DNA from: Verrucomicrobiia bacterium
Lineage (GTDB): Bacteria > Verrucomicrobiota > Verrucomicrobiia > Verrucomicrobiales > Akkermansiaceae
Direction of reading: 5' to 3'
DNA: 34,184 nt
Assembly (NCBI GenBank): GCA_947460915.1
Contig: CANHKJ010000002.1
Location: 1 to 34,184 of the forward strand
Shown one piece after another: positions 3,730 to 6,050 of this stretch. The notes under the pieces are model-generated. The model was not told where the DNA came from. It saw only the letters and a list, made by a program, of their open reading frames with translations, and did no database searches. The stretch's first letter is position 1. Every line of letters starts with the position of its first letter. The translations under genes were made by a program, and so were the position numbers.

Positions 3730-4425
3730 TCAGTAAATGACGGCTTTCAGCGAGTCGATGAGAGCGACTTTCAGCTTGTCCCAACGCACGGGTTTGTTCT
3801 CGAGAAAAAGCTGATTGCTGACTTGGAGTTCGATGGCGAGATACTGTTCGGAACTCCAATCGCTACGGAGGGTATCGAGAAGTTTTTTCGACTGATCGGG
3901 ATAAAATTTGACGTTGGGGACGATGCGCAATTCGGGCATTACTTCCTGAAGCGTTTTCATCCAATCGAGAGCAACGGTGGACTCTCCGACTTTGCCCTCG
4001 GAGAAAAGCAGGCTCACATCGGTATGCGGATGGGCGAGTGGATCAAAGGTGTGAACGCTGATGTGAAGCACGCGCGGGGAGCGTTCGAGTTCGTTGCTGA
4101 TGCGTTGGCGCAGAGTGTTCAGGTGGGGAAGGAGTTGTCGCTCGACGAGTTTTTCTCGTTGTGTTTCGCTGAGTTTTTGCGAGAGCTCACTCCAGCAAGT
4201 GGGGTCATTTTGCTGGGCGTAGCAGTCGATGATGAGGCGGGTAATTTCGCAGTGTACGAGGGGTGTGCGGAATTTCATCGCCATGCCCTGAGCGAGATTG
4301 AGAGAGCCGAGATCCCAACCAGCGGCGGAGGTAATGGTGTCCATGTCCTTGGCGAGTGCTTCTTTGAAGGCTTCGGGTACAGCGCAGGTGGCGTGTTCGC
4401 AGGAAAAAATCAAGGGAAGAGGCAT
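3730..4425 (-). CDS. N-formylglutamate amidohydrolase family protein
   Basis: MPLPLIFSCEHATCAVPEAFKEAL...GWDLGSLNLAQGMA...RLIIDCYAQ...HISVHTFDP: FGase family motifs. Start MPLPLIF at 4425; ORF extends to 4548. Confidence 0.8.
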   Translation of the reverse strand: MPLPLIFSCEHATCAVPEAFKEALAKDMDTITSAAGWDLGSLNLAQGMAMKFRTPLVHCEITRLIIDCYAQQNDPTCWSELSQKLSETQREKLVERQLLPHLNTLRQRISNELERSPRVLHISVHTFDPLAHPHTDVSLLFSEGKVGESTVALDWMKTLQEVMPELRIVPNVKFYPDQSKKLLDTLRSDWSSEQYLAIELQVSNQLFLENKPVRWDKLKVALIDSLKAVIY

Positions 4426-4528: not shown

Positions 4529-4558
4529 TTGGCATACAAGTTATCCACAAATTATTCA
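4529..4558 (+). promoter_or_regulatory. Putative sigma70-like dnaB promoter overlapping the DnaA boxes
   Basis: TTGGCA (4529-4534), 18-nt spacer, TATTCA (4553-4558). Pattern match only. Confidence 0.3.
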
Positions 4559-4560
4559 CA
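4541..4560 (+). promoter_or_regulatory. Two tandem DnaA-box matches: TTATCCACA (4541-4549) and TTATTCACA (4552-4560)
   Basis: Both match the 9-mer consensus TTATNCACA; start-to-start spacing 11 nt; 51 nt upstream of the dnaB ATG. Confidence 0.7.
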
Positions 4561-4610
4561 CGAGGGAATCATTGACGAGAGCGGGGGAGATTGCGCATAT
4601 TGTCCGCCGC

Positions 4611-6050
4611 ATGATCGCCACCGAAGAGAAAAAAAGTTACGAAAAAAACGCGCCTTCCTTGCAGCAAGGAAATGAGGGTAAGGTTGATGATGTGATGCGC
4701 GCCATGCCTCATGCATTGGGCCCAGAGAAGTCGATCCTGAGCTCGATGCTGCAAAATCCGCAAGAATACATCAGCACAGCGATCGAGGAAAAACTCACGA
4801 AAGAGCATTTTTACCTTCCCGCGCACAGCATGATTTTTGATGTGTTGATGGAATGCTTTGAAAAAGGACAAGATGTGGAATTGGTGTCGTTGGTGCAAAA
4901 GCTGATCGATAAAAGCATGCTCGAGAACATTGGTGGTCCGGCTGCATTGACAGAGTTGTATTCCTATGCACCAAATGCCGGACATTTCCTCACGCACTTG
5001 GGTTATGTGAAGGATAAGTTCATTCTTCGCTCAGTGATTAACTCGTGCAATGATGCCATCACGCAAGCCTATGATAATCCCGAGGATGTGCCGCAGTTGC
5101 TCGATGGCGTGGAGACTGCTGTGCTAGCAATCCGTGAAAATGCAGAGGTCAACCGCGCTGTTACCATTAAGTCATCGGTCAAGGAGGTGATGGAGTATTT
5201 CGCGGCCCTCTGTGCCGGTGAAAAAGAAGCGCAAGGATTCCCGACGGGCTATGAGGTGCTGGATCGGATGAGCAGCGGATTGAAGCCTGGGGAGATGTTT
5301 GTCATCGCAGCGCGTCCGTCCATGGGCAAAACCTCGTTCATGATGAACATTGTGGAGCACATCTGCATTGATCAGCAAAAGCCCGCGATGGTGTTTTCCT
5401 GTGAGATGAGCTCGTTTCAAATCGTCCAACGTCTCGTTTTCTCTCGAGCGCGCTTCAAACTGTCCGATCTTCACAAAGGCCTGACGCCGCAGAAAAAAGA
5501 CCTCCTTAGCATCAAGAGGGCTGCCGAGGAAATCGGGAATGCAAAACTTTTCATCGATGACACCCCCGGCATCACCATCAATGACCTTCGCGCGAAGGCT
5601 CGACGAAAAAAACGCGATGAAGACATTCAGCTCATCGCCATCGATTACCTCCAGTTGATGCGATCGCTCAGCAAACAGGCTGCAAACTCACGTGAGCGGG
5701 AAATTGCCGAAATTTCCGCTGGTCTGAAGGGCTTGGCCAAAGAACTCGGGATTCCTATTATCGTACTTGCGCAGCTCAACCGGGGGCCTGAGAGTCGATC
5801 AGGAGGAACGCCAAAAATGTCCGACCTGCGGGAATCGGGCTCAATCGAGCAAGATGCCGACTTGATTGGGTTGCTTTACCGGAGTGCCTATTATGCCGAA
5901 AATGAAGAAGAACGAAAAGAGGAAGAAGGTCGTGCAGAACTCTTGCTCGCGAAAAACCGGAACGGCGAGACAGGGCCGGTGCCACTGACCTTCATTGCAC
6001 CATTGATGCGCTTCGAGACAGGTGCTCCCGCTCAAGAGCCGAGTGCTTGA
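4611..6050 (+). CDS. dnaB: Replicative DNA helicase DnaB
   Basis: [56 protein letters not shown] (Walker A), [51 protein letters not shown]. Start MIATEEKK at 4611; ORF open to 4488. Confidence 0.96.

Follow-up and report, generated by a model that had tools for sequence, protein, structure and literature searches.

The window, a 34,184-nucleotide stretch of the genome of a verrucomicrobial bacterium of the Akkermansiaceae, carries the gene for the replicative DNA helicase, dnaB, whose product is 98% identical to its closest named record (Akkermansiaceae bacterium UBA956, L108). A divergent N-formylglutamate amidohydrolase-like gene lies on the other side of a gap, and this gap holds a tandem pair of nine-base words of the DnaA box type (Table 1). 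Both words are exact matches, on the plus strand and 11 nt apart from start to start, just as the preliminary description of this DNA had reported. No other exact TTATNCACA match exists in the whole 34 kb window, in agreement with the remark in that description that no larger box cluster lies nearby.

Table 1. Features of the dnaB upstream region in the window, and box clusters beside ribD in relatives
Feature	Location	Strand	Remarks
DnaA box 1, TTATCCACA	4541..4549	+	exact match; the closest relative, G006, has TTATTCTCT (2 mismatches) in this position
DnaA box 2, TTATTCACA	4552..4560	+	exact match; starts 19 bp before ATTGAC
-35 element, TTGACG	4572..4577	+	promoter scan; conserved as ATTGACg from 4571 in relatives with or without boxes
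-10 element, CATATT	4596..4601	+	promoter scan; N18 after the -35; ends 9 nt before ATG 4611
dnaB, replicative DNA helicase, 479 aa, ATG start	4611..6050	+	Pfam DnaB and DnaB_C; ATG aligned in the genus
N-formylglutamate amidohydrolase-like gene, divergent	3730..4425	-	Pfam FGase; ATG at 4425 picked by inspection
Box cluster upstream of ribD	G018:C2:263603-263849 (L242)		at skew sign change
Box cluster upstream of ribD	G022:C44:14243-14378 (L215)		at skew sign change
Box cluster upstream of ribD	G099:C2:76992-77081 (L213)		at skew sign change
Box cluster upstream of ribD	G020:C6:4202-4436 (L251)		contig end too close to judge skew

Finding two matches is weak evidence by itself, since 0.66 are expected in the window and 13 of 100 shuffled windows contain two or more. 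The tandem layout of the two boxes is not a chance arrangement, because TTATNCACA-N1..4-TTATNCACA occurs only once in the 3.03 Mb genome, where the reversed control gives no match, and because the same layout is found at 40 sites in 195 genomes of the family, against one site for a control pattern. Statements about the window's genome as a whole, here and below, come from pattern scans.

The dnaB frame of the window's genome is open upstream as far as 4488, and it had been recognized at the outset that translation starting upstream of 4541 would turn the boxes into coding sequence. We rejected this reading. Three species of the genus, G002, G003, and G004, have in-frame stops upstream of the aligned dnaB start, at 18, 24, and 33 nt, respectively, and the alignment of DnaB N-termini across the genus begins at the shared ATG, so the box region is non-coding.

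A consensus scan of the region called a single plus-strand promoter, TTGACG-N18-CATATT. Aligned upstream regions have the same organization: ATTGACg is conserved, and a -10-like hexamer beyond it ends some 9 nt short of the start codon; the aligned -10 hexamers within the genus are CATATT, TATAGT, CATGGT, CATCCT, CATAGT, CACACT, and CAATCT. The preliminary description had instead proposed TTGGCA-N18-TATTCA, overlapped by the boxes, as the dnaB promoter. That pair of hexamers is absent from the plus-strand calls and is not conserved in relatives within the genus, and the proposed overlap falls with it: because the supported promoter (4572-4601) is downstream of the boxes, they abut the -35 element and do not overlap it. 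Box 2 and box 1 end 11 bp and 22 bp upstream of TTGACG, and the end of box 2 is 10 bp from the conserved ATTGAC that holds the -35, placing two exact boxes just upstream of this element. Transcription of dnaB is predicted to start at about 4608-4611, beside the ATG, and the mRNA would be leaderless or nearly leaderless. In Akkermansia muciniphila, leaderless transcripts account for about 10% of the mapped starts (PMC4782308).

Across the family, boxes recur at this promoter. An exact sense-strand TTRTNCACA box is present in 42 of 82 distinct dnaB upstream regions, which include near relatives and are therefore not independent, while Markov-resampled regions give a chance expectation of 0.69 +/- 0.75 regions. 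In a set of 94 loci, which includes some genomes fetched twice (the 82 regions are the set with copies removed), the density of exact TTATNCACA in the 350 bp preceding dnaB is approximately 60 times that of the remainder of the same loci, and 39 of the 41 exact matches upstream of dnaB are in the sense orientation. Mapped onto a DnaB tree, presence or absence of the box requires at least 21 changes by parsimony, 11 of them forced by starred branches, and is somewhat clustered (21 changes compared with a shuffled mean of 27). The preliminary description had named conservation in relatives as a check on its proposal, and this held at the level of the family, where about half of the regions have boxes at dnaB, but is incomplete within the window's own genus.

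The boxes keep a fixed spacing to the -35. In the 51 of 82 regions that could be anchored on ATTGAC, box starts fall into groups 19, 30, and 40/41 bp before this word, in steps of one helical turn. The position of box 2, at 19 bp, is the commonest box position across relatives, and box 1 occupies the register position at 30 bp. A smaller group of regions has a box at 45/46 bp, possibly measured from another TTGAC-like word than the usual anchor. When 195 genomes were scanned for TTRTTCACA-N9..11-TTGAC, 30 places were found: 16 of the 18 places with N10 or N11 are at dnaB, one of these with an intervening ORF, and none of the 12 with N9, which serve as an internal background control, is. This spacing motif was chosen after the dnaB alignments had been viewed, so the dnaB matches in the genomes used for discovery do not count as independent; additional dnaB matches came from genomes sampled only in the spacing scan, such as G063, G100, G102, and G109. 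Taken together, boxes and register are conserved at the same gene, though lost in some branches.

Two arrangements depart from the common one. In G015, a box-N11-TTGAC promoter (L259) is retained approximately 500 bp ahead of dnaB; another ORF occupies the interval, as though this promoter had come to drive a two-gene unit. In G157 (L284), several box-like words, one of them an exact TTGTTCACA, are spread over 120-214 bp upstream of dnaB; the nearest four are approximately 10-11 bp apart, and the array is farther from the promoter than in other species.

Within the window's genus, the boxes have a patchy distribution. G002 retains box 2 as TTATTCACA, G006 has box 2 as CTATTCACA in addition to its 2-mismatch first box, and G007 has TTGTTCACA at box 2. 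Boxes upstream of dnaB are absent from G001, G003, G005, G009, and L113, which form one supported five-species branch of the DnaB tree, and from G004, one further species of the genus; these box-less members keep the core dnaB promoter. Boxes are also absent from 14 of 15 sampled genomes of a genus that is probably Akkermansia, and the sampled other families of the order showed no exact box upstream of dnaB. Given these absences, DnaA regulation of dnaB appears to be dispensable in evolution. Scans of ten genomes (G000-G009) found no second TTATNCACA pair, whether divergent or direct with a separation of at most 32 bp. Nor is a box cluster present at ribD in the window's genus, whose oriC was not found by these scans. 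It is conceivable, though unlikely, that in this genus the dnaB promoter is the main recognizable DnaA target, a dedicated phased array that evolved independently of the origin and was lost on one branch. If so, the loss on that branch would be a natural experiment uncoupling DnaA from dnaB expression.

We also assessed the DnaA protein of the host. It is encoded on contig C90 (L107:8208-9728), has DnaA structures, domain IV (1j1v) included, among its structural matches, and carries both the Pfam domain Bac_DnaA_C and the domain IV signature GGRDHGTVIHACKK, which is common to the family and aligns with GGRDHTTVIHA in the DnaA of structure 8btg; its DNA-binding domain is intact at the sequence level. 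All aligned DnaA proteins of the order read RDHGTVIHA where 8btg has RDHTTVIHA, and the order has TTGTTCACA boxes in places. Our guess is that DHG for DHT might relax the requirement at the third box base to A or G. Autoregulation at this genome's own dnaA was considered and dropped, as contig C90 contains no exact TTATNCACA.

The boxes could serve purposes other than regulation of dnaB. Several relatives (G010, G020, G022, and G023) have three to five boxes upstream of dnaB, and dnaA is 15-20 kb from dnaB in G003 and G020, which would be in line with a main or accessory replication origin at dnaB. We rejected an origin here on the basis of GC skew and the box cluster beside ribD, and consider it exceedingly improbable; the preliminary description had already argued against an origin. 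The skew is continuous, with no sign change at dnaB, in G001 (273 kb), G020, and G018 (tiled samples of a 1.1 Mb contig), and the window holds two boxes, not a cluster. The box cluster beside ribD, on the other hand, coincides with the skew minimum in G018, G022, and G099, where the skew switches sign, and the ribD-adjacent clusters are probably the oriC of those relatives' genera. These clusters contain TTATTCACA, TTATCCACA, and TTGTTCACA, words also found at dnaB, and their clustering at the skew minimum, in a probable oriC, points to the motif as the DnaA box of the family. The same co-occurrence bears on a reading in which the sites belong to a non-DnaA transcription factor with a look-alike motif. 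Many relatives have TTGTTCACA in place of TTATNCACA at dnaB, and such versions could be taken for, for example, a LexA half-site; inspection by eye found no inverted partner half-site beside the boxes, and with all three words sharing the probable oriC clusters, we regard a look-alike as most unlikely. Titration is a further use for boxes of the high-affinity type, and it is established that such boxes beyond oriC can titrate DnaA, so that the pair might act as a datA-like reservoir with no effect on dnaB transcription. Against a reservoir stand a fixed register to the -35, a bias to the sense strand, mostly one or two boxes per site, and a box-N10/11-TTGAC unit nearly restricted to dnaB, and we consider it very unlikely.

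We favor the reading that DnaA binds the box pair to regulate the dnaB promoter, which we hold to be very probable from the sequence comparisons. Control of dnaB by DnaA, the central proposal of the preliminary description, is in this way supported by boxes that recur family-wide, on the sense strand, at a fixed spacing to a conserved -35. DnaA would occupy one to three 9-mer boxes that share the orientation of dnaB and follow each other at intervals of approximately one helical turn. Relative to the predicted start (about 4609), the box centers are at approximately -53 and -64, outside the core promoter, and such an upstream position is the usual site of an activator contacting RNA polymerase. 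Because the boxes lie where activators usually act, activation is the likelier sign if DnaA does control dnaB, and repression or dual control, the less likely sign, keeps an appreciable share of the probability. From upstream of the -35, DnaA would most likely touch RNA polymerase and activate the nearly leaderless dnaB transcript, and helicase supply could thereby follow the level of DnaA or the initiation cycle, although this timing is inferred. The comparison with dnaA autoregulation that had been drawn fares less well if it is taken to mean repression, as the box positions outside the core promoter better fit an activator. In E. coli and others, dnaA autoregulation likewise involves a TTATCCACA-type box in the promoter, and the outcome there is repression. 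Were dnaB repressed in the same manner, there would be less helicase at high DnaA-ATP. DnaA is often a repressor and can exert both signs at one promoter, as at E. coli nrdAB (PMC8203912); here, however, the boxes keep a fixed phase upstream of the -35 and overlap neither the -35 and -10 elements nor the start site, and the reported link between DnaA and dnaB is positive in Caulobacter and M. tuberculosis, which leaves repression of this kind rather unlikely.

DnaA recruits the helicase to the origin; if dnaB transcription is under its control as well, initiation would be coupled to the supply of helicase. The window's dnaB is a well-supported candidate for a new case of such control, with a known precedent in Caulobacter and an indicated one in M. 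tuberculosis. In Caulobacter crescentus, dnaB is a member of the DnaA-dependent gene set and, as in the window, is preceded by predicted DnaA boxes (Hottes et al. 2005, reviewed in PMC8203912); Caulobacter differs in belonging to another phylum, and no fixed phasing to the -35 like that of the window was found in the review text consulted. DnaA of M. tuberculosis binds upstream of dnaB in IDAP-seq experiments, and the I282T mutant of DnaA binds there more weakly and under-expresses dnaB (PMC7738170); binding upstream of dnaB is measured in that species and predicted in the window. E. coli nrdAB, where DnaA can activate from high-affinity boxes (PMC8203912), shares the placement of DnaA boxes in a replication-related promoter, but differs in its target gene and in its dual activation and repression. 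If the proposed control is true, a third, distant phylum with a conserved array under a spacing constraint would support recurrent wiring of DnaA to dnaB. It would also constitute a first testable replication-control circuit in Verrucomicrobiota, natural loss lines included; a limited literature search found no study of a replication-control circuit in this phylum.

Box pairs also occur at other genes. They are found near the start of a dnaE-type gene for the polymerase III alpha subunit at L060, where this identity was tested, and at L056, L058, and L059, where it rests on ORF similarity. Others adjoin prfA in some genera (L055 and L061). The dnaE-type and prfA pairs are possibly further DnaA targets or origins.
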